43,678 bases of DNA from a virus (IMGVR_UViG_3300009618_000002:1-43678), one strand, 5' to 3'; counted from the first letter of the stretch, positions 6,021-27,726 are shown. The notes: a model not told the origin generated them from the letters alone. Numbers and translations: made by a program.

Positions 6021-6623
6021 CTACTTGCTCCACCCGCTCACCGCTCCCGCTGCATGTACCCCTACGCCCTCCAGCGGAAGCGCCCACCATCCCCGATGCT
6101 TGCGCACCAGCCAGCTTGCGCCCGCGCTCAGTCCCTCAATCGAGAATCCTACCCCATACGCCCCGCCCCGGCTCGACGGCATCAAAGGATTACCTTCGAC
6201 ACAAGTATGTGCCTTGAGGCAGTGCTGCGTTCCTTCCACATCAGCTACTAGCGCCCCTGCTTGCAAGCCGTTCAGCACCAGCCACGCTACTGGAACGTGG
6301 TGCCTCTCCGGCGCAGTCTCTTTGCCTCCTATAAGGACACCTATCGGTATGCCTGTTTTCTTCGATACCTTCCGCGCATTGGCCTTGCAGGGATCACGAA
6401 ATTCATAGCGCAGTTTTGTTCCGAAAGATGAAGCCGCCCATGTCCATTCACAATTGATAAAAGAAAGACGATAGGTTGCGAGAGCAAGCGTTCCGGTTGT
6501 GACCTGAGTCCGCTGGACCGCTGGGTCAGACGAAGGCTTGTCCGTTACGCGCTGAGATGGCGTCTGCTCCCATGCGCACCGCGCCACAAGCATCAGAACC
6601 GTTAAGAAGATAATGCATTTCAC
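6021..6623 (-). CDS. Secreted or membrane-associated hypothetical protein
   Basis: A 200-residue protein that begins at a GTG (6623) with a GGGAGG ribosome site 5 bases before it. The N-terminus (MKCIIFLTVLMLVARC) is a signal-like hydrophobic stretch. The Cys is not in a good lipobox, since Arg precedes it. The C-terminal half (about residues 110-190) has two weakly hydrophobic helices around AWLVLNGLQAGALVADVEGT and VGFSIEGLSAGASWLV, with HCLKAHTCVEGNPLM between them. A similar 'TQHCL...C.EGNPL' pattern occurs in bacterial membrane proteins of unknown function. It lies between fibre-like genes and the lysis group. Confidence 0.72.
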   Translation of the reverse strand: MKCIIFLTVLMLVARCAWEQTPSQRVTDKPSSDPAVQRTQVTTGTLALATYRLSFINCEWTWAASSFGTKLRYEFRDPCKANARKVSKKTGIPIGVLIGGKETAPERHHVPVAWLVLNGLQAGALVADVEGTQHCLKAHTCVEGNPLMPSSRGGAYGVGFSIEGLSAGASWLVRKHRGWWALPLEGVGVHAAGAVSGWSK

Positions 6624-6641: not shown

Positions 6642-8123
6642 CTATTTCCCCCTTGCGTTCCAGTCGCAATTGATCGGCGATTGGTTATTGGGGTGAATTG
6701 TGAATCCACTCACTGTCTTTGAGCCTGCAACCACGGTACAGTATCCCGTGTCTCCGCTTGGCATCACGGCTGTCATTTGAATGTTGATCGTTCCAACTGT
6801 TGTGAATACAACCGGGAAAGTCACCGCCGTGTCTCCGGTCACCGTAAAGCTATTCTGCCACTGCACAATGAACCCCTGTTCATCCTGTTCCCAATAACCA
6901 TTTGCATTGGAGCCGTTCGTGCCTACTGAGGGAATCGCCGTACTGCAATTCAGTAGCGTTCCCGATGCGGCGTAGGTACACATATCTCCGTCCGTGAGCG
7001 TGCCTTTAACAAGAGATAGATTTACCTGCGCGCCTACTGAATGATAGTCAATTGTCACCGCGGCGGAGCCGTTGAAGGTGCCGCTCGGTGCAGCGCCGCC
7101 GCTGGTGGCAAAGGTGAGCGCATTGGTTGTAGTGCCACCACCGTCGCCGCCGCAACCTGTGCCATTTGCTAAGCATATTTCTACTGCTCCGATATAAGCA
7201 GTAGTTACATCCGCATCCCCGATAGTTGCAGTATTTGAACCATGTCCTGTAGCTGCTGAGCCGATTACTATTTCATTAGAATCACTTGCACTAAGATCAG
7301 CATCGTAACCAATAGCAACTGTATGGTTAAGACCATCTCTCTTACCCGCAACAGTTCCAATAGCTACATTATCTGAACCTGTAACATTAGTTTGAGCCGC
7401 AGCAACTCCAATAGCTACATTATCTGAACCTGTAGTATTTTCCTGCAAAGAACCTGGCCCAATAGCAATATTTTCAGAACCACCAGTATTAGCCTGCAAA
7501 GCACTAATATCAATAGCTACATTATAAGCGCCAGAAGTATTACTTTCTAATGTAGCATAGCCAATATCTATATTACTAAATCCTGTAGTATCAAGAGGAA
7601 GTGCTCCACCAAAGTTCAAGTTTAAATCACCTGCCCAAACTAAAGCACTATCAATAACAGTAGGTGCAGGAATAGTAAATTGTCCTGCTGTAGTAACTCC
7701 ATAGTCTATTGTTCCATTCCCAATTGTCTGCGCCCCCGTAGCGATGGGGTACACGCCCGAAGTCAGGCCGGGACTGCTGACTGTGCCGTTGGTCGTAGAC
7801 TGCGGCACCTGATCCTGATAGGTCAGCGTTCCGGTATACTGCGAGTAGTAAACAACGGTATAGCATCCAGATGCCATGTATGCGTAGGCGTGTCCGAAAC
7901 CATCCGTTGAAAGCGGCTGAGAAAGCGATGTGCCTGTTGCGGTGGAGTAAAGCGTAGCCAGTGTTCCCGATGACGCCGCGCCGCACGCAGCTTGTGTGTA
8001 AACGTTCACGGTGGCACCCGCAATCGCCTGTCCCTGCGCGTTCTGCAGCGAGAAATCCATCCTGGCGTAAGTAGTCGCGTGTGCCAGCGTAGCGGAAAGA
8101 GCGAATATGAGAAAGAATCGCAT
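6642..8123 (-). CDS. Tail-fibre-like protein with signal peptide and YadA-like repeats
   Basis: A 493-residue protein. Residues 1-16 (MRFFLIFALSATLAHA) look like a Sec signal peptide with an AHA cleavage site. Residues about 20-110 form a beta domain (DFSLQNAQGQAIAGATVNVY), a common base for phage fibres. Residues about 180-300 hold repeats of the type 'GSDNVAIGVAAAQTNVT', matching the left-handed beta-roll head of trimeric autotransporters such as YadA. The C-terminus (about 405-493, NGYWEQDEQGFIVQW through VTFPVVF) matches the gp53-like end domain of tail fibres. The stop-start TAATG couples it to the gene upstream. The DNA encoding the repeat part is AT-rich relative to its surroundings. 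Receptor binding is the most likely job; the signal peptide is unexpected. Confidence 0.82.
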   Translation of the reverse strand: MRFFLIFALSATLAHATTYARMDFSLQNAQGQAIAGATVNVYTQAACGAASSGTLATLYSTATGTSLSQPLSTDGFGHAYAYMASGCYTVVYYSQYTGTLTYQDQVPQSTTNGTVSSPGLTSGVYPIATGAQTIGNGTIDYGVTTAGQFTIPAPTVIDSALVWAGDLNLNFGGALPLDTTGFSNIDIGYATLESNTSGAYNVAIDISALQANTGGSENIAIGPGSLQENTTGSDNVAIGVAAAQTNVTGSDNVAIGTVAGKRDGLNHTVAIGYDADLSASDSNEIVIGSAATGHGSNTATIGDADVTTAYIGAVEICLANGTGCGGDGGGTTTNALTFATSGGAAPSGTFNGSAAVTIDYHSVGAQVNLSLVKGTLTDGDMCTYAASGTLLNCSTAIPSVGTNGSNANGYWEQDEQGFIVQWQNSFTVTGDTAVTFPVVFTTVGTINIQMTAVMPSGDTGYCTVVAGSKTVSGFTIHPNNQSPINCDWNARGK

Positions 8124-8515
8124 TAGGATGCCTTTGTCTTGACTGTAGAGGGCGGAGCCGGTAACCCAGTCACACTAGTAAAGTCTGCCGAGAAGGTGGA
8201 CCCCGCTGCCAGTTTGTACTTGCGGCACATCCAGCCTTCGCGTTTAGTCAGAGCCGTCTGCCGCTGCGTTACGGTAGCTTGCCATTGAGCCAACACCTTG
8301 GTCAATACCGCTACCTGCGGAGCCTGATTCTTGGCTTGCGCGGCGGCGAGATACTTCTGCTCGTTGGCTACTGTAGCCTGAGCCTGCTGAATGCTGGCAT
8401 TGGTTTGGACCAGCATTGCTGTTTCCTTCGCGGTCAGCGTCACGGTAGTCGGAGTCTGAGCCGCCGCCAAAATGCTGCCAAGGACAAGGGTGAGAATTGC
8501 GAGTGTCTGCTTCAT
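8123..8515 (-). CDS. Small secreted coiled-coil protein
   Basis: A 130-residue protein with a clear Sec signal peptide (MKQTLAILTLVLGSILAAAQ), then a helical Gln/Ala-rich stretch (about residues 30-85, TNASIQQAQATVANEQKYL and following) likely to form a coiled coil, and a polar tail. AGGAG precedes the ATG at 8515. It sits between two fibre-like genes that also start with signal peptides and overlaps the start of the next by one base. It could be a chaperone or a trimerisation partner for the fibres. I do not recognise a family. Confidence 0.75.
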   Translation of the reverse strand: MKQTLAILTLVLGSILAAAQTPTTVTLTAKETAMLVQTNASIQQAQATVANEQKYLAAAQAKNQAPQVAVLTKVLAQWQATVTQRQTALTKREGWMCRKYKLAAGSTFSADFTSVTGLPAPPSTVKTKAS

Positions 8516-8524
8516 ATAAGTCTC

Positions 8525-9829
8525 CTACTGTAACGAAATCACGGTGTATGGGACGGTGAGAACAACAGAGCCGTTGCCCTGAGTGATGGAGGTGATGTTG
8601 ATTGAAAGTCCCTTCCCACCACCTGGCGGTTGCGTATTAAGATTATCGGGATTGGCTGCAAGAAAGTTCGTTCCACAAAGACCGGGAGTATCAATTGCAA
8701 TGGCAGTTACAATGCCGTTGGCGTTGGTGGTGACTACGTGCCCATCTACAGGATTACCGGTTACGTTACAATATGAATCCTGCCACGTATCGCCATTTCG
8801 ATATCCCGCTCCGATTGTGAGTACATCCAGTTCCAGCGTCCCATCTCCGCCGCCCGTGGTGGCTTGCCCCGTGCCTGTGGTGCAGCCGGTGCCGAGGCCC
8901 GTCTCGTGGTAGGTAAGCACAGCGCCCGTCACCGAATCTACTGAGTCTACATAGAAGGTCGCGCCACAAGCCAGGGCCGGAGTATCGCCAACGTTGTAAG
9001 TAAGCCCCGCATTCCCGCTGGTGATCTGCGAGGTGTTTACTCCGTCCGTCTGGCCGCCAGAGGCGATAGTGAAGGTAGCAAGGGCACCCTGGTTAATGGT
9101 ATATTGGTTAAAAACAGAGAGAGGAGCATTGATGAAAGCAGAAGACTCTGCACTACCACTACCAAGGCTAAGGGGATAGGAAACTCCGAATTGATTCGTA
9201 CTTAAAGATGTACCAGCCTCCACGCCCCAGTATAAAGTGTCGTTAGAAACCGGCAGACTTACAAAGAAAGCGTTGTCGCTAAACGGTTGGCTCCCTGCAA
9301 TGTAATTGGCGGTAGCCGAGAGAGAAACTATTGCCTTCCCCGCTCCCGGCGTGCCGATTATCGATATCGCCGTCGAGGTAGTTCCATCGAACTGAAGCAA
9401 GTCAGCCGTTGTCAGCGTGAAGACACAGACAGCGTTCGCCAGTTGCGGGACCGTGGAGGCGTCGCAGGTCTGGAGGGGGCCGCTGCTACCGCCGTAGCAC
9501 GGATTCGGCGTCCCGCCCGTGGTGTAGGTCACTAGCTGCCCGTTGGTCGGAGAATAGCCGGTGCAGAACGGTACGCCGAGGATCGCGCCCGCGCTGATGT
9601 TGCCGTTGGCATCACATGCGATTGGGTAATAACTACCGGAATTTACGCCTACGATACCAATCAACGGCGGTTGCTGTCCGAGGGCGGTTCCGTTGATCCC
9701 CGTGGCTACCGGAACCCAGTAGCCGCCGGTCGAATACCAACAGGACAACGCGCGCAACGGCGGTGCTTGCCCCAACTGCGCCATCGCTGGAAGCGCAACC
9801 AGAAGAAGCAACCAAACAAACTTTTTCAT
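8525..9829 (-). CDS. Beta-rich fibre-like protein with signal peptide
   Basis: A 434-residue protein beginning with a textbook Sec signal (MKKFVWLLLLVALPAMA, cleavage before QLGQ). The rest is Gly/Thr/Ser-rich beta sequence with few Lys residues. Several paired cysteines (CDASTVPQLANAVC, ALACGATFYVDS and others) would favour disulfides in an oxidising compartment. Residues about 280-400 contain 'GGGDGTLELDVLTIGAGYRNGDTW', a short beta-repeat found in phage appendage proteins. AAGGAG precedes the start. It is likely a virion appendage or secreted adhesin, judged from neighbours and composition rather than a named domain. Confidence 0.75.
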   Translation of the reverse strand: MKKFVWLLLLVALPAMAQLGQAPPLRALSCWYSTGGYWVPVATGINGTALGQQPPLIGIVGVNSGSYYPIACDANGNISAGAILGVPFCTGYSPTNGQLVTYTTGGTPNPCYGGSSGPLQTCDASTVPQLANAVCVFTLTTADLLQFDGTTSTAISIIGTPGAGKAIVSLSATANYIAGSQPFSDNAFFVSLPVSNDTLYWGVEAGTSLSTNQFGVSYPLSLGSGSAESSAFINAPLSVFNQYTINQGALATFTIASGGQTDGVNTSQITSGNAGLTYNVGDTPALACGATFYVDSVDSVTGAVLTYHETGLGTGCTTGTGQATTGGGDGTLELDVLTIGAGYRNGDTWQDSYCNVTGNPVDGHVVTTNANGIVTAIAIDTPGLCGTNFLAANPDNLNTQPPGGGKGLSINITSITQGNGSVVLTVPYTVISLQ

Positions 9830-9838
9830 ACTGCTCCT

Positions 9839-10600
9839 TTACGCGAAGATTGTAACCACAAGTGCTGTAGTCGCATCCCCGCCCGTCATGGAAAGCACTT
9901 TGGCCCGCAGGAATTTCCCCATAATCCAGTTGAATTCTGCACCGTTTTGTGCGACTTGGCTTCCGCTAATGCTAGCGAGCACATTCGTACCGCCCGCATT
10001 AAGCAGCGTTACATAACGAGCATCCTGATCGACATTCGCAGCCTGTAGAACAACGACGGCGGCACTTGGCATTGTTCCAGACCAGACCGCATCGCAAAAC
10101 AGGCACCGGGCATTGTCCGAATCATCCGGCGTGAATGTCTGAGCAATCGGGGCAGACGCAGAACCGCTGGACACGAGATCGGGATACTCATATGGCCAAA
10201 CTACCAGTTCGCCTGCATCTGCGGTGGCACTGAGGGACGTTGCGTTGGCGTAGGTAATTGTCCCTGCGCCGGCGGAATTGAGCGTCACCGTGCCCACCGT
10301 GGTCGGATCGGTGTTAAAGCCAGTATGCGTGAGCCCACGCACGCCCATCACCGCTCCGGCGACAGGAATCGGGCTTGGCACTTCCGTACCCTGTCGACCG
10401 CCGACACCGCCCCCGCCGCCGATGAACTGCACAGTTGCCGTAGCCGTTCCGGTAGCGCCCGCAATCTGCGAGATGGTAAAGCGGAACGGCTGTGTGTGCG
10501 CATCGCAGCGCCCAAACAGGTAGAGCGGCGTCACGCCGGTTTGCATCCGCACAATCTGCTTGTACGGGGGACCAAAGGCGCTCTGATTATAGATCGACAT
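9839..10600 (-). CDS. Structural protein candidate, beta-rich
   Basis: A 253-residue protein starting at 10600 (AGGAG upstream), with no signal peptide. It begins SIYNQSAFGPPYKQIVRMQTG and continues as beta-rich sequence with a glycine loop (FIGGGGGVGG, about residues 59-68), two cysteine sites (GRCDAH and ARCLFCDAVW) and a C-terminal domain ending KVLSMTGGDATTALVVTIFA. Composition matches phage decoration or appendage proteins. It lies between the internal-virion-like gene and the signal-peptide fibre genes. A minor virion protein is the best guess; no named family is recognised. Confidence 0.65.
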   Translation of the reverse strand: MSIYNQSAFGPPYKQIVRMQTGVTPLYLFGRCDAHTQPFRFTISQIAGATGTATATVQFIGGGGGVGGRQGTEVPSPIPVAGAVMGVRGLTHTGFNTDPTTVGTVTLNSAGAGTITYANATSLSATADAGELVVWPYEYPDLVSSGSASAPIAQTFTPDDSDNARCLFCDAVWSGTMPSAAVVVLQAANVDQDARYVTLLNAGGTNVLASISGSQVAQNGAEFNWIMGKFLRAKVLSMTGGDATTALVVTIFA

Positions 10601-10620
10601 GTTTTTTCTCCTTTTCTCCT

Positions 10621-11604
10621 TTACTTGCTCGGTATCAAATCCCTCAGATAGTGTGCGCCAATACCAGTTCCGACGGCGGTAGGTATGCCGTATTTCGCTG
10701 CGTTGATGACCGCATTCCGCATCTTCATCGCCTGCGCGTACTCCTTGACCGCACTGGCATAATCTTCGCCGCGGCCAATCGTTGAAGCGGCGTTCGTGAG
10801 GTCTCCGTGCATCGCTTGCCGCACAGCTCCCATTTGCCGTCGCATAATCGGATTCAGACGGCTCATGTCCTCAGAGGATTGAGAACTAATGTTTGAATAA
10901 AAGTCGCGGGCCTCTGGGAAATTGAACGGCCCCGCATTCGGATCGCGAACAATGTTTGTCAGTCTGCGATTGATCTGCGTAATCGGCTTCGAGGACGCGC
11001 CGCCACGCTGCGTGAGTTCCTTGAAACGCTCAATCTCCGGCCATGCCTGCTGCGGATAGGCGGGAACATCCTGAGCCGCGCCGCGAATGTCCTGCAGAAT
11101 CTGACCGGCATGAGCGCGGCTCGGAATCGCGCTGATTGCAGCATCCGCCGCTTCGGGAGCCAAGAACATAGAGGGCAAAGTCATTGCTTTCAAGCCCGCG
11201 CCTAACAAATTGCCAGTCCCCGAGATTGGATGACCTTCTCGGATTTGCGATTCGCCTTTGCCAGCTTGTGCGATAGCCAGTGGTACACTGCCCATTAACT
11301 GCGCGGTTTCCGGCGTCGTCCCAGCCTCAAGCCCGCTGTATCCCTTATCAACACGCCCCTGCAAATGACCCAAGCCGCGCCCAACAATCGTCCGGCCGCC
11401 GCCATGCAAAAGATCGTTTTGCACATCCTCCCACCAATTAGTTTCAGTTTGCGGGCGCGCAACGAGTTCACCGGGAGGCAACATGGGTTCTTGCGGAAGG
11501 GGCGCTTTCGTGCTAACAACCTCACCCGTTTGAGGATCGATCTGCAGGGGCGCGGTCGTTTGTACCACTTCGCCGGTTTTGGGGTCGATCTGCGGAGTTG
11601 CCAT
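10621..11604 (-). CDS. Internal-virion-like protein with N-terminal decapeptide repeat
   Basis: A 327-residue protein. The ATG at 11604 shares a base with the upstream stop (TAATG), which decides the start over one at 11622. Residues 4-32 hold two copies of an IDPxTGEVV-type repeat (QIDPKTGEVVQTTAPL, then QIDPQTGEVVSTKAPL). The middle is Gly/Ala-rich with possible membrane-active segments (LLGAGLKAMTLPSMFLAPEA), and the C-terminal 100 residues are helical with a hydrophobic end. Order and composition fit ejection or internal core proteins of short-tailed phages that sit between portal and tail and enter the cell with DNA. No enzyme motif is seen. Confidence 0.65.
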   Translation of the reverse strand: MATPQIDPKTGEVVQTTAPLQIDPQTGEVVSTKAPLPQEPMLPPGELVARPQTETNWWEDVQNDLLHGGGRTIVGRGLGHLQGRVDKGYSGLEAGTTPETAQLMGSVPLAIAQAGKGESQIREGHPISGTGNLLGAGLKAMTLPSMFLAPEAADAAISAIPSRAHAGQILQDIRGAAQDVPAYPQQAWPEIERFKELTQRGGASSKPITQINRRLTNIVRDPNAGPFNFPEARDFYSNISSQSSEDMSRLNPIMRRQMGAVRQAMHGDLTNAASTIGRGEDYASAVKEYAQAMKMRNAVINAAKYGIPTAVGTGIGAHYLRDLIPSK

Positions 11605-13304
11605 TATTGCGCTGCCACCCACTTTCCGCCGGTAAATTTGACCTTAATTCCTGCGGCATTCGTCTTCGTCGAACCTTCTACTGGTGTTGCGCCCGCGGGC
11701 GGTGCGTTGCCGCCGCCCTTTGCTGGCGTCGGAGGAGCGCTACCTCGTGCCACGCCCTGATTGAATCCCGGTTCTGCCATGCTTGCCATATCTTCCATCC
11801 ACGGCTGAACGGCTCGTAGCACAGCAATAAGGTTCTCTGGCGTCTGATGCGGCGAGTTAATCGCATCGTCAAATTCTTGCCGCAAATTTTCAGGGAGTCT
11901 GCCAATCGCATGAGCCATTGCGACGGACGTAGCCGCCATCATCATTTGCTGATGAAGATGCGCAAATGTCGGATTATCCAGACCAATCTTGCCTTGATAG
12001 AAGTCGTTCCAGCGGCCCATGATGGGGCCGAATTGGTCAGGATTCGTTTGCAATTCATTGACGATATTAGGAATTTCCTTGAGCGCAATCTGTGCTCTGC
12101 CCGCCGCAGTTTTCTCTTGTCCTGTCGGCTGATAAAGACTATTCACGCCACTCATCGAAAGCGATCCAGCAGGAATTGTCTGTCCCGGCTGGATTTCCTG
12201 CGCTGTGTAGTTTCCTTGTCCATCGGGAATAGCCCAAAGATTCCGTTGCAATGTAGGCGCAACCTGCGCATAACTCGGTGGGGCAATTCCACGATCAATG
12301 CTGTACTGTTTTGTCTGCGGGTCACGCTCCATGATGTGCGGTTGGCCGTTAAGCATCGCGGTGATATGCGGCTGTGTTTTATTCAGCGCATTCATGTCAG
12401 CCACTTTTTCGCGGCTCTGATTCGTTGCGGTTGTCGTATCAACTTTCGTTGTGTTTACGCCCGCCTGCTTGATGATCTGCTCCCACGATTTCGGGTCCAT
12501 GGCGCTTCCGGCAAGCCCCGGCATGTTCATGGCTGCCGCTTCATCTGGCGTCACAATATGCGGTTCCAAAGATTGTGCATGCGCGCCATAGTATCCCGCC
12601 TGGGCATTCTGCAATCCGCTCTCGTTCGCCTGCTTCTGCTGCGCGAGTTGTTGCTCTTGCAAACCCGCAAGTTCCTTCTCGCGCTGCCCTTCCTGAGCGC
12701 GCCGAGCAACCATCGTGCCGGAATTTTGCACCAATCCGGTTTGCGCAAGCGCGTGGCCGAGCTTGCCCCAGAACCCCTGTGCGGGCTGCGGATTGTCGTA
12801 TTGGGAGACCTTCTGCTGCAACTGCTGACGCAACTGATCCTGCGGGTTCGTCACGATGGGCTTGAGACCGCTGGTAGGAAGTGGAGGCAAGCCACCCATC
12901 GAACCCATCGACATCGGAGGAGGTTCGGGACCGAGCGGCTTTTGCATCGGAATCACGCTGGTCGGAATCTTGGGGACAATCAACTCAGGCCCATTCTCTC
13001 CGACAAGAGCGGGCTTGTTGGGGTCTGGATCGCCCCCATTTTGAAACGCTGCAATCGCTTTTGCTCCAGACGCAATATCGGCACCGCCAGCCGCTGCTGC
13101 TGGACCACCCTGAAAACTGCTGATAAGTTGCGGGATTGTGCCTTGACTCCATCCACCCTGCGGCTTTCCCATCGAATTTTGCCCAGGTTGATTTTGAGCG
13201 GTTTGATTCTGGCTCGACGCTATATCAGGCACACCGCCGCGGAAGGGATCGGCGTTAATCCAGCGATTTGAGTCCCATGGTTCAACTATCGGACTAAGTG
13301 CCAT
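11604..13304 (-). CDS. Large internal virion protein with tape-measure-like VGENGPELIVP motif
   Basis: A 566-residue protein. The ATG at 13304 has GGAGGGG just before it. The first 150 residues are disordered and rich in Gln, Pro and Gly (for example TAQNQPGQNSMGKPQGG). Residues about 112-122 read LVGENGPELIVP, a motif typical of phage tape measure proteins. A Gln-rich helix follows (about 205-235), then a mainly helical domain (about 330-510, LQRNLWAIPDGQG through ENLIAVLRAV) and a disordered tail with a small KVKFTGGKW end. The protein is probably an ejected core protein of a short-tailed virion. A lytic transglycosylase domain was looked for and not found. Confidence 0.72.
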   Translation of the reverse strand: MALSPIVEPWDSNRWINADPFRGGVPDIASSQNQTAQNQPGQNSMGKPQGGWSQGTIPQLISSFQGGPAAAAGGADIASGAKAIAAFQNGGDPDPNKPALVGENGPELIVPKIPTSVIPMQKPLGPEPPPMSMGSMGGLPPLPTSGLKPIVTNPQDQLRQQLQQKVSQYDNPQPAQGFWGKLGHALAQTGLVQNSGTMVARRAQEGQREKELAGLQEQQLAQQKQANESGLQNAQAGYYGAHAQSLEPHIVTPDEAAAMNMPGLAGSAMDPKSWEQIIKQAGVNTTKVDTTTATNQSREKVADMNALNKTQPHITAMLNGQPHIMERDPQTKQYSIDRGIAPPSYAQVAPTLQRNLWAIPDGQGNYTAQEIQPGQTIPAGSLSMSGVNSLYQPTGQEKTAAGRAQIALKEIPNIVNELQTNPDQFGPIMGRWNDFYQGKIGLDNPTFAHLHQQMMMAATSVAMAHAIGRLPENLRQEFDDAINSPHQTPENLIAVLRAVQPWMEDMASMAEPGFNQGVARGSAPPTPAKGGGNAPPAGATPVEGSTKTNAAGIKVKFTGGKWVAAQ

Positions 13305-13312
13305 CGCCCCTC

Positions 13313-13852
13313 CTACGCCAGTGCCGCGATTGAAGCAGCATCCTTTGTAAGTTCTGGAATCTGCTGCATCCATCCATACTTGGCAGCATTCATCTGCGCA
13401 TTGATGTCCGGCGCAACCTGTCCCTGACTCTCAATCTGCCCGCGCACATCCATGCCATACAGCCCGCTCAGGCCCTGCCCGGCTTCCTGCTGCTGTTTCA
13501 TCTTCACGTCGGCATTATTCGCGGCAATGCGCTCGCCAACCCCCGCAGCGCCCTTATCGCGCTCGCGGGCTGCAGCATCCAAAGCAGAGCTAAATCCCAT
13601 CGGATTGCGCGTATTCGCGGCCATCTTGCCTGCCGCGCCTGTCAGTCCAGATGTAGCGCCGCCCGTGCCTGCAAGGGCGGACGTAAGCTGTGCCCCCACG
13701 TCGCGCTGGCTGTAGCCTTGGGGATTGGTCATCTGGCGAGTATAGAAAGGAACAAGATTCGCGCCGATTCCGCCGGCCTGATTCCCGTAACTCCCCGCTG
13801 TCGTTGCTGCGGTTCCTGCCGCTTGCGCGGCGGCTGCCTGAGCGTCCCTCAT
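13313..13852 (-). CDS. Ala/Gly-rich internal virion protein candidate
   Basis: A 179-residue protein. The ATG at 13852 overlaps the upstream stop as ATGA and has GAGGG in front, so it is preferred to the start at 13900. The sequence is rich in Ala, Gly and Gln (AAAAQAAGTAATTAGSYGNQ), predicted as low-complexity helix with turns, ending IPELTKDAASIAALA. Phages with portal-hub-ejection gene order often carry such a small Ala-rich protein beside the large ejection protein. It could help pack or release the core. There is no signal or membrane span. Confidence 0.65.
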   Translation of the reverse strand: MRDAQAAAAQAAGTAATTAGSYGNQAGGIGANLVPFYTRQMTNPQGYSQRDVGAQLTSALAGTGGATSGLTGAAGKMAANTRNPMGFSSALDAAARERDKGAAGVGERIAANNADVKMKQQQEAGQGLSGLYGMDVRGQIESQGQVAPDINAQMNAAKYGWMQQIPELTKDAASIAALA

Positions 13853-14244
13853 TGCGTTGCCCTCGACCAAGCAAACCAGCCGGGACGGTTGCGAGACCAT
13901 CCTAGTTGAGTCAGCCGTTTACGGAAGCGCCGCTCTACGGTCTCTGGTATGCGCGCTTCAATGTCGTCAAGTCCTTGCGCCCAGGCCGCTGCCAACACGG
14001 CTGGTTGCAATTCATTCATCGTTTCAACTTTAGCACGAGCCGTCAATTTCGGGTCCAACCACAAGTACGTTTCTGCCGTGAGGCGCAAAAAGCAGGCTGC
14101 CGTGACCCCGTCTTCCTCCGCGGCCACCTTGCGCACAAGAAATAGCGGATGCGCTAGATTCGGCAACCGATAGTCCAGACCCATCTTGCCATGAATCTGC
14201 TCGATAGTGGGAAAATCTTCCGGGTTGGCGTCTCTAACCTTCAT
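13849..14244 (-). CDS. GNAT-like acetyltransferase-fold protein
   Basis: A 131-residue protein beginning MKVRDANPEDFPTIEQIHGKMG, the usual first strand and helices of a GNAT N-acetyltransferase. A central strand pair around FLVRKVAAEEDGVTAACFLRL and a later helix (TMNELQPAVLAAAWAQGL) fit the fold. The final segment (RFRKRLTQLGWSRNRPGWFAW) matches the GNAT C-terminal 'f..~lGF~' strand pair. The Gln/Arg-x2-Gly-x-Gly/Ala acetyl-CoA loop is not clear, so catalysis is uncertain. The start at 14244 makes ATGA overlap with the gene upstream. Similar proteins occur next to ejection proteins in other short-tailed phages; the substrate is unknown. Confidence 0.7.
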   Translation of the reverse strand: MKVRDANPEDFPTIEQIHGKMGLDYRLPNLAHPLFLVRKVAAEEDGVTAACFLRLTAETYLWLDPKLTARAKVETMNELQPAVLAAAWAQGLDDIEARIPETVERRFRKRLTQLGWSRNRPGWFAWSRATQ

Positions 14245-15467
14245 AGAATCAATTCTTTTGACACGCAATTACGCGGATTGGCGGGCCATGAAATAGCCCC
14301 CTCCGAGTATGCCCCACCGCTGATCGCGCCCTCTGAAAATGCCCCTCCACTCGCCGCCGGGACTCCGGCGGGCCAGGAGATTGCACCCTCAGTAAATGCT
14401 CCTCCTGAAATCGCTCCTTCCGTGAACGCGCCACCTGAGATCGCCCCCTCAGAAAACGCTCCTCCGCTTGCTACTGGGACGCTGCTCGCTCCAGTCGGCC
14501 AAGAAATCGCCCCGTTGGTAAACGAGCCGCCGCTTGCGGTCGGAACATTCGTCGGCGCAGTCGGCCATGCAATCGTTGGCTGCGTGGAAAGCGTGCTGCT
14601 CGTCGTGCCAGATACAAGGGTCACGGCATCTAGGGTACTCGGAGCATAGAATGACCCACTGCTGGCTACGGTTGACCGCGTTGTTACCATCGAGAAAGCC
14701 GCTCCCGATGCAGTCGGAACCTTCGTAGGCCACGCAATTGTCGGCTGCGTAAAGGTTCCCGCCGCGATGGTAGGCACGGGCGTAGGCCATGCCACTGTCG
14801 GCTGCGTAAAGGTTCCCGCCGCGATGGTAGGTTGAGTAAATGTCCCGGCTGCTATAGTTGGTTGAGTAAAACTGCCTGCCGCGATGCTGGGCACTCCCCC
14901 CGGCCACGCGATTGTAGGCTGCGTGAAACTACCGGCAGCGATTGTCGGTTGCGTGAATGACCCTGCCGCAATCGTGGGAACATTAAGTGGATAAGAAATG
15001 GTTTGTGCCGCTGCCGTAAGCGAACTGACCGTCTGCGCCGCTGCCGTCAAAGAATTCGGCGTTTCAGCCGGAACCGTGGTCGAGGCACCGGTAAACGTCT
15101 GAGCAGCAGCGGTGAGCGAATTGACCGTTTCAGCGGGTACGGTAGTGCTTGCGCCGGTGAACGTTTGCGCTGCAGCAGTCAAGGATTGAGCCGCATGATT
15201 GCCTACATTGCCTGATGCCGATGTGACGACTACGACATTGTAGCCAGCAAGCGAATCGTTCTCGGTCCATCCACTTGGGCATGTGCCGGTGGCAATGAAC
15301 ATAATCATGCCGCTTGGAATCGTCGTTCCCGTATTGACACAGGTATTGCTGGAAGGTGCATAAACTGTCCCGGCGCCGCATGAAGGCCAGCGGATATCGG
15401 TTGCCGGATTGATGGATTGCGCGGCCAACGGTGCAGCCAAAAAGAAACTAAGCAGCGTAAATTTCAT
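14241..15467 (-). CDS. Repeat fibre with signal peptide and collar-like N-terminal domain
   Basis: A 408-residue protein with a Sec signal (MKFTLLSFFLAAPLAA). Residues about 50-75 (GMIMFIATGTCPSGWTEND) match the phage tail-collar motif, seen at fibre tips and bases. Three tandem families follow: SLTAAAQTFTGASTTVPAET repeats, then alternating TIAAGSFTQP and TIAWPTKVP units, then ISGGAFTEGA units to the end. Such 9-10 residue units suggest a beta-solenoid or other elongated shaft. GGGAGA precedes the ATG at 15467, which overlaps the upstream gene by 20 bases. Lys and Arg are nearly absent. It is likely an exposed or secreted adhesin. Confidence 0.78.
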   Translation of the reverse strand: MKFTLLSFFLAAPLAAQSINPATDIRWPSCGAGTVYAPSSNTCVNTGTTIPSGMIMFIATGTCPSGWTENDSLAGYNVVVVTSASGNVGNHAAQSLTAAAQTFTGASTTVPAETVNSLTAAAQTFTGASTTVPAETPNSLTAAAQTVSSLTAAAQTISYPLNVPTIAAGSFTQPTIAAGSFTQPTIAWPGGVPSIAAGSFTQPTIAAGTFTQPTIAAGTFTQPTVAWPTPVPTIAAGTFTQPTIAWPTKVPTASGAAFSMVTTRSTVASSGSFYAPSTLDAVTLVSGTTSSTLSTQPTIAWPTAPTNVPTASGGSFTNGAISWPTGASSVPVASGGAFSEGAISGGAFTEGAISGGAFTEGAISWPAGVPAASGGAFSEGAISGGAYSEGAISWPANPRNCVSKELIL

Positions 15468-15807
15468 GCGAGTCTCCCGTCTGCGGCGGTGTGGCCGCGA
15501 GTTCCGTCAGAGTATTGCCGCTGATTGAGTAATAGACACCATATATCCGCTTGATTCCATTCACAAAATAAAATGAGCCGGTGGGGTGCGCCGGAGTAAT
15601 CGGAAGCGTGTAAGTTGTTCCGCCATTTGGGGCTGCGATAGTCAGCGGCGATGTAGTAAATGGGGCATCGCTCGATGCCGGGACGTAGGCTGAAATGTTT
15701 CGAGTTGTGCCGACAGGACCCGGCTCGTCGGACTGCCAGATAACATTGACGTATCCGACTGGCGCCGCCGGTTCCGTGTTGCTGAAGTTTTGCTTCTGAC
15801 TCGGCAT
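15448..15807 (-). CDS. Small beta protein next to hub and fibre genes
   Basis: A 119-residue protein starting at an ATG that shares one base with the upstream stop (TAATG at 15807). It begins MPSQKQNFSNTEPAAPVGYVN and is predicted mostly beta, with repeated aromatic-Gly turns and a segment GSFYFVNGIKRIYGVYYSISGNTL near the end. N-terminal NTEPAAP-type sequences recur in phage appendage proteins. It could connect the fibre to the hub. There is no signal peptide, unlike the next gene. No family is recognised. Confidence 0.65.
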   Translation of the reverse strand: MPSQKQNFSNTEPAAPVGYVNVIWQSDEPGPVGTTRNISAYVPASSDAPFTTSPLTIAAPNGGTTYTLPITPAHPTGSFYFVNGIKRIYGVYYSISGNTLTELAATPPQTGDSHEIYAA

Positions 15808-16454
15808 TAGACTCCATTGACTGTCCACTCAACCCCGGCGCTGCCCACCCCACTGCTTGCCGGTCCCGGTTTCGATATTTGCTTGCTGGTCTGAAACTTC
15901 CCCAATCCCTGCCCCGCACTCTGCCCATTATTTGGTGCTGTTCCGCTTCCCTGCGAGGGTAACAGCGTCATCGCGGAACTGCCGCCCATTTGAAACGCTG
16001 TTGGACTTCCCAAACCACCCACAACCGTTACATCAGAAGGCGGCGAACCCGGATACTGCGCATAAGAGCGCACATAGTAATTCGCCTTCGTCACTCCATC
16101 ATCAAGATAAGTTGGCAACATAATTGGATGCGATGTGCGTGAGGTTCCGTGGTCGATGACAAGCGGCTGCGTAAAACTTGGCGTATTTGCTATCTCAGTG
16201 AAATAACGAATGTTGCGCTGTAATTGCCCGGAATGATTGATGGCAATGTGCATCATTTCGCCGCTGGTCTTTACGGAAACCGAATCCGGCGCTTTTGGTG
16301 CCGTAATCTCGCCGGTGGGCGAACCGCCCGTAGACGCCGCCACCCGGTTGATAGCATCGGCCAGGGCCTCGTGAACCTGGGCATGGCGCGGATCTTTGGA
16401 CGAGACTTCCGCCTGCAGTCCGCCAAGATCGAGTTGCCCGCTAGGATTCGCCAT
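15807..16454 (-). CDS. Hypothetical structural protein
   Basis: A 215-residue protein. The ATG at 16454 overlaps the stop of the giant hub gene by one base (TGATG). The N-terminal 60 residues are helical (HAQVHEALADAINRVAASTGG), the middle holds a beta domain (about 70-160), and the last 60 residues are Gly/Ser/Gln-rich and probably disordered. The small N-terminal helix plus beta domain resembles connector or base proteins that link fibres to a hub. Its place between the hub and fibre genes supports a tail role. Confidence 0.65.
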   Translation of the reverse strand: MANPSGQLDLGGLQAEVSSKDPRHAQVHEALADAINRVAASTGGSPTGEITAPKAPDSVSVKTSGEMMHIAINHSGQLQRNIRYFTEIANTPSFTQPLVIDHGTSRTSHPIMLPTYLDDGVTKANYYVRSYAQYPGSPPSDVTVVGGLGSPTAFQMGGSSAMTLLPSQGSGTAPNNGQSAGQGLGKFQTSKQISKPGPASSGVGSAGVEWTVNGV

Positions 16455-19400
16455 CAAAAGCCTCGTAATGGATTCCACACATCAGCAGCAGCTACGAGCG
16501 TTGCGCGAGAAAGATTGAAATAGCACCCAGCCCCGTAGGTTGACACTTCGATAAACATGCGCTGGCCGAGTTCATCGAGCGGGCCTTCAATGTCGTTCGC
16601 TGCTGGATCAGAGAGCGTGATGCCGCCCGGAACAATAAAAGGATATGGGGCCTGCAGGACGTTCTGGTAAAACGTCACTGCCAGCGTGCCATCATTGATT
16701 GAACCGTTGCCGGAGAGCAGCAAATCATAGTAGACGTAGCGTTTGTTGTGATTTCCGAAGGCCGGAAGTTGGCCTGCTTTGTCCTGATTCACAAAGGGAT
16801 AGGTGCAATAGCTCGAAATGAACGGAACAGAATCGTCTGCTCCAGCAGTGTAGGAACCAAGCGTATAAATCTTGCTTGATCCGATCCCGTTGCAAAACAT
16901 CACTTCGGAGAAAAGTTCACTGCGCTTGCAGATGCCCATGTACGGTGTCTGAATCGACCACAGCGACCACTTGCGCCGCAGATCGTGAATCGCCAACCGC
17001 CCCATCATGGTAACGTGCATTGGCATCGATGCCATCAGTTCCTCAATCGATCCGATGCCGTCATAGTTCAAGAAGATCACCACGTTCGGGCTCGTCGGAT
17101 TCTCGTTCTCCTCAAAGTTTGGGCACCAGGCGTTAGGCGTCGGCATCGGAACGGCCAGAAAGATACGATTGTGCGCGGTGTCGTTGCGCACGCAGATAGT
17201 ATTTCCGTACTGCCAATTGATCGCATCCCACCAGTCCGGCACTTCAAGCTGAATCGGTATCGGTTCGCCGCCGTTGAAGAGGAATAGCCCGTTCTGGCAA
17301 GCCATGATTGCCCACTTCTTGCCCACATCGTAAGCATTGATTCCCGCGGCTCCAGCGACGTTCGATACCTCTTTGTACGGATTCCAGTTTGCCGGCTCCT
17401 GATTCGGCGTGTCCGCGATGTAGCCGAGCGAGCTTTCCTTGACGATGTAGAGATTCCCATTCATCTCGAAAGCGCCGTTTGCAGGCTGGGCATTAACGGT
17501 CGTAGTGTCTGTGCCGCCCGTATCCAAGTCAAAGGAATCGAGATCGTTCTTGTAGCTGATAGAAAGTGCGGTGTAGTTCGTCGGAGCCAGAGTCGGATAG
17601 ACTTCTATGCGGTCAATCTCGATGTCGGCATTGTCGGCAAAACCAGAGCACCAGACGCGCAAATAAAGATCGGTAGGGATCGTCAGCGTGTTCGTGGTCA
17701 GCAGCGTCCCGCTGTATGTGACCATGTTCGAGGTCATGGCAGACAGCGCAAGCGTGTAACTGCCAAACGTTTGTCCGTAGCCCGAGCCGGAATTGTAGGT
17801 TGTCAGATCAATCACTAGAGAGCCGACCGTAGCGCTCCCTGGAGTTCGGCATGTCACGCGCACGCTGTACGGAGTTTGATTCTGCAAGATCGCAACGCTG
17901 TTCCAGTCCTGATAGGCGCTCTGGGTAATCATGCCGAGAGACGCTTTTGTGCTGCCTGTCGTGTTTTTCAGATAATACGAATTTCCGTAGACGGGCGAAA
18001 CGAGAAGCGTGGGCAGTGCCGCGCTGTTGTTGCTCGCGTCGAGACCCCACCCAAGGGGAGCGAGCGCCCCACCGGGATTCGGATTGTAGCCGCCGTCAAA
18101 TGATAGATTCAGAAAGTTTTGAATCTTGTTGCGCACGCGGCCATAAACAGAACGCCCGGCGTATTGCGTACACCATGCCGCATCGCCAAGCTCGCCAAGA
18201 GAAAACAGATCCTTTCCCTGAATATCTATCTCTTCTGCCTCTAGAAGAACCGTGTCGGGGAACGTGAATTTCGCTGTGGTCGTGACGTTATCGTTGATGA
18301 TGAGAGCAGACGAAAGATAGGTCACGCCATTGTAGACAAACTGCACAGGTGCGGGAATGGTATAGTAGCTTGCTCCCGGCTGGCCTTCCTGCCCTGCTTC
18401 AGTGAATGCAATCCCGCGCGCAACCACTTCCGGCGGCCCAATAGGAATGTTTGAAACCAAAATATAATTTGTGTTTTCCGCCGTGGTGAACTGCACTGGA
18501 GGAGCGGGCGCTGTCCAGAACCCATTTCTTGTGATGAAAAACACAGTTCCCTTGCGGGTTCCTGTGCCGACGATCACAGATGAGGAGCCGACAAGCGTAA
18601 TATAGCCGCCGCCGGAATTTCCGTAAATCGGATCAACGGCGGCATTGCCGAGAGCAAGAGGACCGGGATCGATCTGAAATGCTGTCCCGCTGGTGGTTGC
18701 TTGCGCTACCTCCGCCTGCGTCGAATAGTTGAGATTGTAGGCAAATCCCGCAACGGTAAACGTGCCGCTTGTCGTACCGGTCACGGTAGCAATCACCGCA
18801 TCCGTCACATTAAAAATGCCATTTCCATTAAGAGTGCCCGTGATGGTCACGAGTTGCCCGGAAACTGGTGGTGTGCTTGTTGCGCCGGAAAGCGCCCAAT
18901 CATACGTTGCCACGCCGTTGACCATTGAAGTCTGCGAAATGGAATAGGAGCCAGAGTTGAGTGCGTTGACAATCTGCCACGTCTGATCCCATGCCGTCAC
19001 ATTCGCGCCGGAAATCGTTACGTCATCCCCCGTTTGCACGCCGGGAAGCGGTAGCGTCGTAGTCAGTGTGGCGACAGTAAGTTGATACTGACCGGGGCAA
19101 GCATTATTTCCCCCACCCGGATTCGATTCATAATAGTCTGTCGATGCTACATTGAACGTAAAATAATAACGTCCATATTCATGTCCGCTGCCAGGATTTG
19201 CTATGCCCGCTCCTGTGACTAGATGTGTACCGTTTGCAACAGCTACATTCGTTCCAGACACGTGGACATATACCGGGAAAAGTGCTTGATTAATCGCAGT
19301 AATTAAGTTTTTGTCCGCCGAGTTCTGATAAGTATACGCATCAAGATAATAGATCGTGATCACGTTGCCAGCACTGGTTGAACCCGGCCCAGCACTCCAG

Positions 19401-21016
19401 ATAATGTCGTCAAGTTGCGTCTGGTAGTACGGTGAACCTTGCGTACCTGTTCCATTCGGTCCCGCCCAGTTCCAGAACGGATATTGAGTGATGCCATTCG
19501 GCGATGCAACGATGGGATAGGTATATTGCGGAACTGCCGTTGCCGTGGTGCTGCCGCTGCCCGTGATAGCTACGGTTGTGATCTCAAACTGGCTTGTTGA
19601 AAGCCCGGTGCCTAGCACGTTGAAGGCAAGCCCATTCAGCGGGTAAAGAGCATCGCTAGAACCAGCAGATATTGTGACCACTTCGCCTGCCGTTAGGCTG
19701 TTTGTGGCCGTCAGCGTAAGCACGGAGCCGCTTGCGGAGTAAGCCGTAATCGAAACGACGCCGCCGACAGTAAGTGTTCCCTGAAAGTTCGGAGCCGCAC
19801 CGGGGCCAACCTGCGATACGCGGTCATTCCAGCCCGTCTGTGCGGGCGTAGTGCCGACGATTTGCTGCGGCGGATAATTCCCTTCAAGCAGATCGGAAAA
19901 AGTCATGTATTGGCGCGAATTCGCGGTGAATGAGGAGGCAAAGGTGCCCGCTGGAGGACCGCCAAACAACGGCGTAAGGACGCCGGGAGCCGTCGAGGTA
20001 TATTCGATCCACACTTCGCCGGAACTATCTTGCGCGACGTTGTAGATGTTGCCAAAATCATCCTCGTAGGTGGTGATGTAATTGAAGTTTTTCTGCGTCG
20101 GAAGAAAATAATCCGTAACTGTCACGTAGCCAACGAAGATATTGGCTCCGCTGCTTGCAGTTGCGGTGATACGAACGCCAAAGCCAGTATTGTTAAGGTC
20201 CGAATACAGCCATGATGCACCAAAGAGATCGTTGATCCCGCCAAAACGGAGCATCGTAACGCTGCCCACGTTCAATGCAAATGATTCAATGTTGCCGATG
20301 GGACTTCCGGCTTTAAGCATCTGCACGTTGAGATTCGCCGGGGCATCGGCATAAGCCTTGATCGAAACAATAAATCCCTGCGGAGAAGAACTGCTGGAAA
20401 TCGAAAAACCAAACTCGGTGATATCAAGCCCGTCGGTTGCAAAAACATCAGTCCCTATTAAGGCGTGTCCCGTATCTGACGCAGGACCATACGGAGCAGG
20501 ACCGACGCCCTGGAAAGTGGCGGTGTTGCCGCCGGTATCAAACGGAATTCCGCTATATCCATTCAGTGCCGCATAGTTTGTCAGTCCAGAAAACGTATAG
20601 ATTTCATTTGCGGGCGCAGGCCCGCTGAAAGTCACCGTCGTATAAGAGAATTGCCCGTGCGGACCCGCAGTGACGGCGACAATCGACACAATATCAAGCG
20701 TGATTGGATTGGAATAAGGAAGCGTCGCCGTCGCATAAACGCCCGTATTCAGCAGCGTGTTGCCGGGATTCGACCAGACAGCCCCATCCAGCGACGTATC
20801 GACGGCAGCGCCGCCGGGATCAGGGCCAACGCTGCCGTTTTGATACGTGAACGGATTTTCAAGTCCCTGCCGCGTAAACACGCTGCCGACAGAGAAATCT
20901 GAATTAACGGTCCTTGGGCTCCCTCCCTCTGGTAAATCATGCGGCTGCGCGAGAGTGACAGCACCAGAGAACGTCTCTAAAACCGCTGATTGGCGGCCCT
21001 TGAGATCATGTCCCAT
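16454..21016 (-). CDS. Giant tail-hub-like structural protein (tail tubular protein B-like)
   Basis: A 1520-residue protein, the largest in the genome. The start at 21016 has GGGAGG upstream. Residues 27-50 (DLPEGGSPRTVNSDF and following) resemble the N-terminus of short-tail hub proteins. Residues about 418-482, 645-695 and 708-760 are three versions of a beta domain with a 'VTISG...LNG' core. Residues 1150-1350 (ANGAFEMNGNLYIVKESSLG, then LFLFNGGEPIPIQL and WWDAINWQYGN) look like the beta-propeller part of a T7 gp12-type nozzle. The C-terminus (1410-1520) returns to beta sheet. It is about twice the length of T7 gp12, the extra length being inserted beta domains. Role: tail tube or nozzle, probably with sugar or host binding. 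Confidence 0.7.
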   Translation of the reverse strand: MGHDLKGRQSAVLETFSGAVTLAQPHDLPEGGSPRTVNSDFSVGSVFTRQGLENPFTYQNGSVGPDPGGAAVDTSLDGAVWSNPGNTLLNTGVYATATLPYSNPITLDIVSIVAVTAGPHGQFSYTTVTFSGPAPANEIYTFSGLTNYAALNGYSGIPFDTGGNTATFQGVGPAPYGPASDTGHALIGTDVFATDGLDITEFGFSISSSSSPQGFIVSIKAYADAPANLNVQMLKAGSPIGNIESFALNVGSVTMLRFGGINDLFGASWLYSDLNNTGFGVRITATASSGANIFVGYVTVTDYFLPTQKNFNYITTYEDDFGNIYNVAQDSSGEVWIEYTSTAPGVLTPLFGGPPAGTFASSFTANSRQYMTFSDLLEGNYPPQQIVGTTPAQTGWNDRVSQVGPGAAPNFQGTLTVGGVVSITAYSASGSVLTLTATNSLTAGEVVTISAGSSDALYPLNGLAFNVLGTGLSTSQFEITTVAITGSGSTTATAVPQYTYPIVASPNGITQYPFWNWAGPNGTGTQGSPYYQTQLDDIIWSAGPGSTSAGNVITIYYLDAYTYQNSADKNLITAINQALFPVYVHVSGTNVAVANGTHLVTGAGIANPGSGHEYGRYYFTFNVASTDYYESNPGGGNNACPGQYQLTVATLTTTLPLPGVQTGDDVTISGANVTAWDQTWQIVNALNSGSYSISQTSMVNGVATYDWALSGATSTPPVSGQLVTITGTLNGNGIFNVTDAVIATVTGTTSGTFTVAGFAYNLNYSTQAEVAQATTSGTAFQIDPGPLALGNAAVDPIYGNSGGGYITLVGSSSVIVGTGTRKGTVFFITRNGFWTAPAPPVQFTTAENTNYILVSNIPIGPPEVVARGIAFTEAGQEGQPGASYYTIPAPVQFVYNGVTYLSSALIINDNVTTTAKFTFPDTVLLEAEEIDIQGKDLFSLGELGDAAWCTQYAGRSVYGRVRNKIQNFLNLSFDGGYNPNPGGALAPLGWGLDASNNSAALPTLLVSPVYGNSYYLKNTTGSTKASLGMITQSAYQDWNSVAILQNQTPYSVRVTCRTPGSATVGSLVIDLTTYNSGSGYGQTFGSYTLALSAMTSNMVTYSGTLLTTNTLTIPTDLYLRVWCSGFADNADIEIDRIEVYPTLAPTNYTALSISYKNDLDSFDLDTGGTDTTTVNAQPANGAFEMNGNLYIVKESSLGYIADTPNQEPANWNPYKEVSNVAGAAGINAYDVGKKWAIMACQNGLFLFNGGEPIPIQLEVPDWWDAINWQYGNTICVRNDTAHNRIFLAVPMPTPNAWCPNFEENENPTSPNVVIFLNYDGIGSIEELMASMPMHVTMMGRLAIHDLRRKWSLWSIQTPYMGICKRSELFSEVMFCNGIGSSKIYTLGSYTAGADDSVPFISSYCTYPFVNQDKAGQLPAFGNHNKRYVYYDLLLSGNGSINDGTLAVTFYQNVLQAPYPFIVPGGITLSDPAANDIEGPLDELGQRMFIEVSTYGAGCYFNLSRATLVAAADVWNPLRGF

Positions 21017-23436: not shown

Positions 23437-24145
23437 TGGGTCTCCTGTCTGCAATAAAGTGCCGATTGCGCGCCAGCATGGTAATGAACGCAGCGTTTGC
23501 GTGTTTCTCGATGCTGCGCTGTTTGTCCTCAAGCCATGCGGTAGAGGCCAGCGTGGGCTTGCGCTTTACGCTCTGGTAAATGTCCTCAACCGTCTTGGCG
23601 TAGTTGTCGTCATCGCGCTCCTCTTCGTCTTTGAGAAAGCGCAGTTTGGCTTCTACAGAAAGCAGCATGGATGCCTTAATGATCGGCACCATCATTTCAA
23701 TGATTTCCGTTGAAAGGGGAAAAGCATGTAAAAAAAGTTGTCCCTTTTCCGCCCACTTTGCGATCAACTGCAAAGCAATCTGATAGCTGCCGTGATAGGG
23801 ATATTGCCCCAAAAGTTGCAAGCCGGTTTTCGTACATTTGTTGGCAGCATAGAATGCAACATCCGATTCCGGGGGAATGTGCGGCATCTCCACACATTTC
23901 CCTGCATCGCACCACTGCAGCAGCATCCAGTGCGGGAGACCGTCGCCTAAAAGAATGTCGCGGTATCCCCTGAACCAATCACCTTCAGCTTCCCACTCGC
24001 CGCCCTGCCGCACGGTTTCCGTTTGCGCCCAGGCTAGGCGAAAGTTTGGCTGGCCGTAGCGATTGACGCCGCCAACTTCCGTAAGCCGCGCCTGAAATTC
24101 CGGCGGACATTGCAACCGTTCCGGATTGTCAGCCGCCGATGGCAT
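23429..24145 (-). CDS. Hypothetical protein between GroES-like and zinc-ribbon genes
   Basis: A 238-residue soluble protein. The start at 24145 lies inside the end of the GroES-like gene (17-base overlap), and the stop overlaps the next start by 8 bases. The N-terminal half is beta-rich with many Trp residues (FRLAWAQTETVRQGGEWEAEGDW is one stretch); the C-terminal half is helical (FPLSTEIIEMMVPIIKASML and ELR-like helices). Three Cys in the middle (CDAGKC, NKCTK) could bind metal. No family is recognised. Placement suggests a head-completion or capsid-associated protein. Confidence 0.65.
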   Translation of the reverse strand: MPSAADNPERLQCPPEFQARLTEVGGVNRYGQPNFRLAWAQTETVRQGGEWEAEGDWFRGYRDILLGDGLPHWMLLQWCDAGKCVEMPHIPPESDVAFYAANKCTKTGLQLLGQYPYHGSYQIALQLIAKWAEKGQLFLHAFPLSTEIIEMMVPIIKASMLLSVEAKLRFLKDEEERDDDNYAKTVEDIYQSVKRKPTLASTAWLEDKQRSIEKHANAAFITMLARNRHFIADRRPNA

Positions 24146-24536
24146 AGGTCACGCTTTCAATGAGTTTTACATCGTAGAAGCGCACAAGTTGATAATCCTC
24201 GCCATCCACGCTGATCGGCTCGGCATTGAACTTGCCAAAGGTCACGACATCGCCCGGTTTCACCAGAGGTTTCTCGCCTTCAAGTTCCGGCCCTACTGCG
24301 ACCACAACGCCCTTATTCGGCGATTGCTGCACTGATTCGGGAATCACAAAATGCGTTCCGGCGTAAGTCGTCTCTTTCGCGTTCTGCCGCACCAGAAGAT
24401 AATCCCTGATCGGTTTCGGCTCGGAGAAAACGCGGTCCACTTCGGCGAGCGTGTACGGCGGATCTTCTACGCCGACTGTACTGGTGCGCCGATCCACAAT
24501 CTCTGTTACAGGTTGTCCTATGCATTCGTTTTCCAT
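24129..24536 (-). CDS. GroES/Cpn10-like co-chaperonin
   Basis: A 135-residue protein with AAGGAG four bases before the ATG at 24536. After about 38 leader residues, the segment KPIRDYLLVRQNAKETTYAG, the IPESVQQSPNKGVVVAVGPE part, then VKPGDVVTFGKF and the closing VRFYDVKLIESV align in order with GroES (IRPLHDRVIVKR, then the mobile loop and KGEVLAVG, then VKVGDIVIF and end IMSESDILAIV). GroES caps the GroEL cage; phage versions such as T4 gp31 change the cage to fold the capsid protein. This gene follows the capsid gene directly. The leader is longer than in bacterial GroES and the mobile loop differs. The family call is strong; the role with capsid is inferred. Confidence 0.86.
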   Translation of the reverse strand: MENECIGQPVTEIVDRRTSTVGVEDPPYTLAEVDRVFSEPKPIRDYLLVRQNAKETTYAGTHFVIPESVQQSPNKGVVVAVGPELEGEKPLVKPGDVVTFGKFNAEPISVDGEDYQLVRFYDVKLIESVTYAIGG

Positions 24537-24600
24537 CGGTCTCCTTGTGCGTAGAGGCCGCACCAATTAGCGCGGCCCCTACATTCTTCGAGTTACATCG

Positions 24601-27538: not shown

Positions 27539-27726
27539 CATCCCTCCGAATAATCCTCGTGTTTAGGACGTTCGGCACCATTTCTTTCAAGGGCGTTGTG
27601 CCAAACCATATGTAAAGAGCGCCGTTCATCGTCTACAAGGGCACCGCAGCGGCTGCAAATTGAGTATTGCTGACCAGAAAAAAACATTTTGTCGGGAGCA
27701 ATGAAAAATTCGCCAAGAGTAGGCAT
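27538..27726 (-). CDS. Small C2H2-type zinc-finger protein
   Basis: A 62-residue protein beginning MPTLGEFFIAPDKMFFSG. CSRCGALVDDERRSLHMVWH gives Cys-x2-Cys-x11-His-x3-His, a zinc-finger arrangement. The ATG at 27726 shares a base with the stop of the histidine phosphatase gene. Nearby phage genomes often place such finger proteins in the head module. DNA or protein binding is inferred. Confidence 0.65.
   Translation of the reverse strand: MPTLGEFFIAPDKMFFSGQQYSICSRCGALVDDERRSLHMVWHNALERNGAERPKHEDYSEG

Follow-up and report, generated by a model that had tools for sequence, protein, structure and literature searches.

Predicted Sec signals and paired cysteines on the tail spike and fibre proteins of a podovirus-like phage and its relatives

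The tailspikes of podophages, exemplified by that of the cyanopodophage Pan3 (9VYG) and more remotely by gp9 of P22, have an N-terminal domain that docks on the virion, a variable receptor-binding body and a late gene position. They lack a signal peptide and assemble within the cytoplasm, and in the textbook view the assembly of tailed phages is a cytoplasmic process. Virion proteins with Sec signals are found in the filamentous phages. In M13 both pIII and pVIII are made with such signals, and pIII contains disulfides, but these phages are assembled at the inner membrane and extruded. The YadA-type trimeric autotransporters likewise combine a Sec signal with segments of YadA-like repeats. Here we analyze a 43.7 kb IMG/VR virus record (43,678 nucleotides, hereafter the window), a tailed, podovirus-like dsDNA phage whose genes for terminase, portal, tail and lysis are on the minus strand. 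Its predicted spike shares the three features of the podophage tailspikes given above, yet the docking domain lies behind a cleavable-type signal and the cysteines are paired.

The spike or fibre, of 493 aa, is encoded at 6642-8123; all the features between 6021 and 21016 given here are on the minus strand. It is predicted to comprise a Sec signal MRFFLIFALSATLAHA (8076-8123, from the scorer described below), a tailspike-type N-terminal, virion-docking domain (the N-domain; 7794-8075) that contains Cys47 and Cys87, a YadA-like repeat region at about residues 158-318 (7170-7652; PHROG 6002, 23837 and 4636) and a variable tip. An earlier note on this DNA had read YadA-like repeats with a gp53-like end in one of its fibre-like proteins. 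The repeats in 6642-8123 are matched by virion structural and tail spike families of PHROG (E 2e-17 to 2e-15) and, by tblastn, by tail fibre genes of marine phages, but no Pfam or PHROG match was found to the gp53-like end, or to the collar motif that the note had also claimed. A single-sequence model of the receptor-binding tip is of low confidence, with a pLDDT of 42.5. In contrast to the YadA-type adhesins, the protein has no Pfam match to a C-terminal YadA membrane anchor, and it is encoded in a phage late operon and has a virion-docking domain.

Three further genes begin with predicted signals. That at 8123-8515 encodes a small, helix-rich protein of 130 aa, a candidate periplasmic partner or chaperone. 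A predicted fibre of 434 aa is encoded at 8525-9829, with the signal MKKFVWLLLLVALPAMA (9779-9829); cleavage between ALPAMA and Q is likelier here than at position 22, where the scorer places it. A homologue of this gene in the relative G018 is likewise signal bearing. The third, at 14241-15467, encodes a repeat-rich, fibre-like protein of 408 aa with a borderline signal MKFTLLSFFLAAPLAA (15420-15467). Upstream of it lies a small adaptor-like protein with no export signal (15448-15828), which shares a motif with the tail fibre gp18 of the cultured phage Tunturi_3 (46% over 37 aa, E 9e-5). Two further tail genes are non-exported: the conserved ‘YLFG’ gene (9839-10600), which in the relatives lies ahead of the exported fibres, and that of the large tail protein of 1520 aa (16454-21016).

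Signals were scored with a home-made Sec-signal scorer (not SignalP), which combines a matrix derived from 24 known signals of E. coli with rules for the n-, h- and c-regions: a positive n-region, a hydrophobic h-region and small residues at −3 and −1. In calibration on 39 proteins of an annotated stretch of E. coli, 6/6 exported proteins passed at ≥4.9, and the sole other protein to do so was the anchored TolA. The earlier note had assigned Sec signals to four genes of the window and a signal-like start to a fifth, and had judged such signals unexpected on fibre-like proteins, rightly in our view. All five ORFs are present. The four signals are recovered, with scores of 16.2 (8525-9829), 12.3 (8123-8515), 10.9 (6642-8123) and a borderline 5.0 (14241-15467), but the fifth gene, at 6021-6623, falls below threshold at 3.3; its Cys16 lies outside any lipobox, and we have dropped it as an exported protein. 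This gene, of 200 aa, lies directly ahead of the lysis genes and has a weak similarity to DUF5658 (E 0.14). None of the remaining 32 genes of the window passes the scorer, as against 3/98 spurious ORFs of the opposite strand.

When the four signal-bearing N-termini are shuffled, 9–25% still pass. Composition alone is thus no proof, and we do not base the case on the scorer; the stronger evidence for export is the conservation of the predicted signals across relatives and the pairing of cysteines. The passing of shuffled sequences of the same composition also speaks for another possibility, that these hydrophobic N-termini have nothing to do with export and are membrane-active or anchoring virion segments, or decayed host sequence. 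We return to this reading with the cysteines.

Relatives were found using the terminase, the large tail protein, the N-domain of 6642-8123 and the YLFG gene. In sixteen phages the sequence beyond the YLFG gene is readable (the window, G002/G005, G006, G009, G014, G015, G016, G017, G018, L078, L079, L081, L084, L086, L087 and L089), and in 16/16 it is followed by a large signal-bearing fibre gene; the remaining virion genes of these phages almost never pass the scorer. Two arrangements are found. In type A (the window, G002, G006, G009, G014, G015, L078 and L081) the signal leads directly into the N-domain, which is fused to the fibre. The called start of L081 is located so far upstream that the scorer misses the signal, which was identified by eye instead. 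In type B (G016, G017, G018, L079, L084, L087 and L089) the N-domain is a separate, signal-less gene, followed by a signal-bearing fibre gene. G004 is also of type B in its N-domain, its fibre region being cut off, and L079 has an additional N-domain gene of 415 aa with neither signal nor cysteine. Compared with that of the window, the terminases of the relatives give two weak matches, and two records have no match. Since the terminases are barely alike, the exported-fibre arrangement is probably old, as judged from these comparisons. Among 50,697 phage records, tblastn found no match to the exported N-domain or to 8525-9829.

Two other features of the relatives may be mentioned here. Small, helix-rich, signal-bearing proteins like that at 8123-8515 recur near fibre, lysis or capsid genes (L028 6185-6487 in G009, L034 12356-12637 in G010 and L081 14869-15153), and could be periplasmic fibre chaperones. 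The exported fibre ORF is of unequal length in the near-identical contigs of G005 and G002, at least 1795 aa (L025 12752-18138) against 1282 aa, which suggests recent recombination of the fibre.

A similar gene cluster occurs in a cultured phage. Tunturi_1 is an infectious podophage of Tunturiibacter X5P2, of the Acidobacteriota (PMC11924767). It has five signal-bearing genes in one block, gp12, gp13, gp14 (annotated as tail spike), gp16 and gp17, and Tunturi_2 has the same block (PP887698, PP885685). Like the window clade, these podoviruses of Acidobacteriota have signal-bearing, even-cysteine, low-lysine fibre or spike genes in a block, but the fibre bodies share short segments only with those of the window clade, which has from one to four such genes rather than five. 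The gp12–gp17 proteins are not described as exported in PMC11924767. The fibres of Tunturi_3 and Tunturi_4 have no signals; those of Tunturi_3 contain 0.40% Cys, compared with 2.07% in Tunturi_1. Tunturi_3 infects the same host strain as Tunturi_1 with no exported fibres, and so export is not a requirement of the host. A search with gp31 found no Tunturi_1-like phages. The similarity of the lysis genes and of an internal protein to those of Tunturi makes it likely that the host of the window phage also belongs to the Acidobacteriota.

The recurrence of the arrangement in the 16 phages, and in GenBank's own annotations of the Tunturi genomes, counts against the suggestion that the start sites are misplaced and the signals are never translated. 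The start codons are as called, and in one homologue the start is TTG, yet Shine-Dalgarno-like sequences lie ahead of most of the starts, for example cgtaaaggagcagt ATG, and we find this suggestion hardly credible.

A low lysine content and paired cysteines, which the earlier note had seen in one protein, are borne out in three of the window, with 8, 10 and 4 cysteines after removal of the signal in 6642-8123, 8525-9829 and 14241-15467, respectively. The mature signal-bearing fibres contain 1.98% Cys and 0.91% Lys, compared with 0.62 and 3.64% in the other virion genes. Once the predicted signal is removed, the cysteine count is even in 32/33 signal-bearing proteins, compared with 55/86 genes lacking a signal (Fisher p 8e-5). 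The count is even in 17/17 proteins of the discovery set (p 8e-6), in 4/4 of Tunturi_1 and in 11/12 (p 0.003) of a held-out set, which comprises proteins of phages fetched after the parity rule had been noticed; these p-values overstate independence, the sequences being related, although most of the 4–32 cysteines belong to fibre bodies that vary from one phage to another. In ten proteins the signal itself contains an odd number of cysteines, and in 9/10 of these the count is even only with the signal removed. An even number of cysteines is a known mark of exported, oxidized proteins (PMC7678975), and its emergence on removal of the signal is thus independent support for real export. The one odd count is that of L081 12525-13118 (197 aa), in the held-out set, with three cysteines after the signal. 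Its signal contains a lipobox-like LIAC, and it may be a lipoprotein.

The same division is seen within the N-domain. Its exported copies contain a pair of cysteines (the window, G002, G009, G014 and L078) or a tetrad (G006, G015 and L081), whereas the non-exported copies contain none or one. Moreover, the signals of G014 and of 6642-8123 no longer align (the BLAST match begins at residue 18), although identity over the 88 residues that follow is 70%. Such divergence of the signal, the parity that emerges only on its removal and the lack of paired cysteines in signal-less copies all argue against N-termini that serve some purpose other than export, and we consider that reading very unlikely. 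Sec export of the fibre proteins of the window and its relatives is, on the pattern of signals and cysteines, well supported. Cultured phages with the same YadA-like repeats have no signals and are mostly low in cysteine. The exceptions are gp41 of Roseobacter phage CRP-1, which scores 4.97 and by eye is a false positive of low hydrophobicity, and gp48 of HTVC112P, with 1.85% Cys and no signal.

What the exported proteins do is indicated by the N-domain. Its AlphaFold2 model has a pLDDT of 90.9, and in a profile comparison its match is the N-terminal part of the Pan3 tail spike, as seen in the tail complex 9VYG (E 0.0013). With Foldseek it matches the N-termini of phage pectate-lyase tailspikes (E down to 1.5e-6, TM 0.83–0.85), while the fold search of the PDB is weak (9VYG, E 0.04; P22 tailspike, E 0.25). 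The domain is present in 6642-8123 and in seven signal-bearing homologues. Since it corresponds to the part of tailspikes that forms the junction with the virion, modelling and profile together make proteins of the 6642-8123 type look like virion spikes and not free decoys. An N-domain of phage tailspike type also weighs against the proposal that these are secreted host adhesins which the phage has acquired and expresses to bring about lysogenic conversion. Signals, low lysine and paired cysteines are indeed typical of secreted host proteins, but the genes are flanked by tail and lysis genes in the late operon, even in relatives with barely similar terminases, and the sole match in genome_contigs is to a contig of 4 kb whose genes are in phage order. 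We therefore regard this proposal as highly improbable. That contig, L052, is assigned to a Spartobacteria MAG and looks like a mis-binned phage contig.

The earlier note had offered two readings, that the proteins are secreted as a coat, decoy or biofilm factor, or that virions are finished outside the cytoplasm. In the first, the exported proteins would be non-virion products made from fibre domains, acting as secreted decoys, as receptor blockers in superinfection exclusion or as matrix proteins. Export itself is well supported, exported receptor blockers of phages, such as Llp of T5, are known, and no docking domain was detected with Pfam or PHROG in two of the three large proteins of the window, 8525-9829 and 14241-15467, which could have some other exported role. 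Yet the tailspike docking domain is found on 6642-8123 and its seven homologues, the genes lie within the late virion operon with one kept in every relative, and neither the window nor Tunturi_1 has another evident large candidate for receptor binding. On this evidence we judge a non-virion role for the proteins to be unlikely, and favour the completion of virions outside the cytoplasm.

The explanation we prefer, and think probable, is that the spikes are exported by the Sec pathway, reach their folded, disulfide-bonded state in the periplasm and attach to virions at lysis. In the window phage and its relatives, the fibre and spike proteins would be made as Sec precursors, and passage across the inner membrane would be followed by loss of the signal and by the formation of intramolecular disulfides on the periplasmic side. 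The exported proteins would be the receptor-binding parts of the virion, one of them with the docking domain of a tail spike; an exported protein with such a domain implies that docking follows export. Attachment of the spikes to the virion would then take place outside the cytoplasm, most likely when the cell is opened by holin and endolysin. Some relatives would differ in keeping the docking domain in the cytoplasm as a separate protein and exporting the fibre alone. Possible benefits are fibres hardened by disulfides, or kept from targets in the cytoplasm until lysis. What can be read from sequence is the Sec-type signals and their restriction to fibre genes, the predicted signal loss, the potential for disulfide pairing and the docking domain on exported proteins; from these we infer translocation, cleavage, presence in the virion, docking at lysis with its timing, and an advantage. 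Heads of P22 that lack spikes are completed in vitro by purified tailspikes, and by analogy late docking of exported spikes is plausible. Against the explanation, docking after lysis must beat dilution.

The chances are somewhat better than even that this is a lineage of tailed phages that finishes its virions outside the cytoplasm, with Sec-exported, periplasm-oxidized spikes docked at lysis on otherwise complete particles. We know of no description of such an assembly route for tailed phages, and in the open-licence papers searched we found no description of exported tail fibres. If true, export and oxidation of fibres throughout the clade would divide virion assembly between two compartments, and would explain the disulfide-rich fibres of soil phages. 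The finding of a phage family from soil and peat whose spike and fibre genes have secretion signals and paired cysteines is also relevant to the prediction of receptor-binding proteins. The absence of a signal peptide has served as an argument for phage origin (PMC6199706), and signal-bearing fibres are thus at risk of being discarded as host genes. Tunturi_1 and Tunturiibacter X5P2 are a cultured pair in which export and docking are testable, and Tunturi_3, which infects the same host, supplies the control.

Exported virion proteins may occur in a second, different form in G012, an unrelated AT-rich phage (L036 13237-13776, 17280-18947 and 18911-19813; L068). Strong signals are found there on a stabilization-protein-like tail gene, on tail genes and on a gene near the putative capsid; the cysteine counts include odd values (1 and 9), and G012 is excluded from the parity claim. 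In the window, the late operon contains a GroES-like co-chaperonin gene (24129-24566; phrog_3188, E 2.5e-13) just after the gene in the capsid position (24601-25956). A gene of the histidine phosphatase superfamily (27726-28349; PF00300, E 7e-33) adjoins the portal gene in the same operon. Proteins with ‘RHGE’ that resemble it are found at the matching place in G001, G006, G009 and G014, making it an odd but conserved resident of the virion module. Lastly, the two ends of the record, 1-576 and 43184-43678, encode the same peptide (DGLIGSDGVLEIKNPSTEKHLLYWEEGLIPEDYIPQCAWEM), and form a terminal repeat that splits a single YqaJ-like exonuclease gene.
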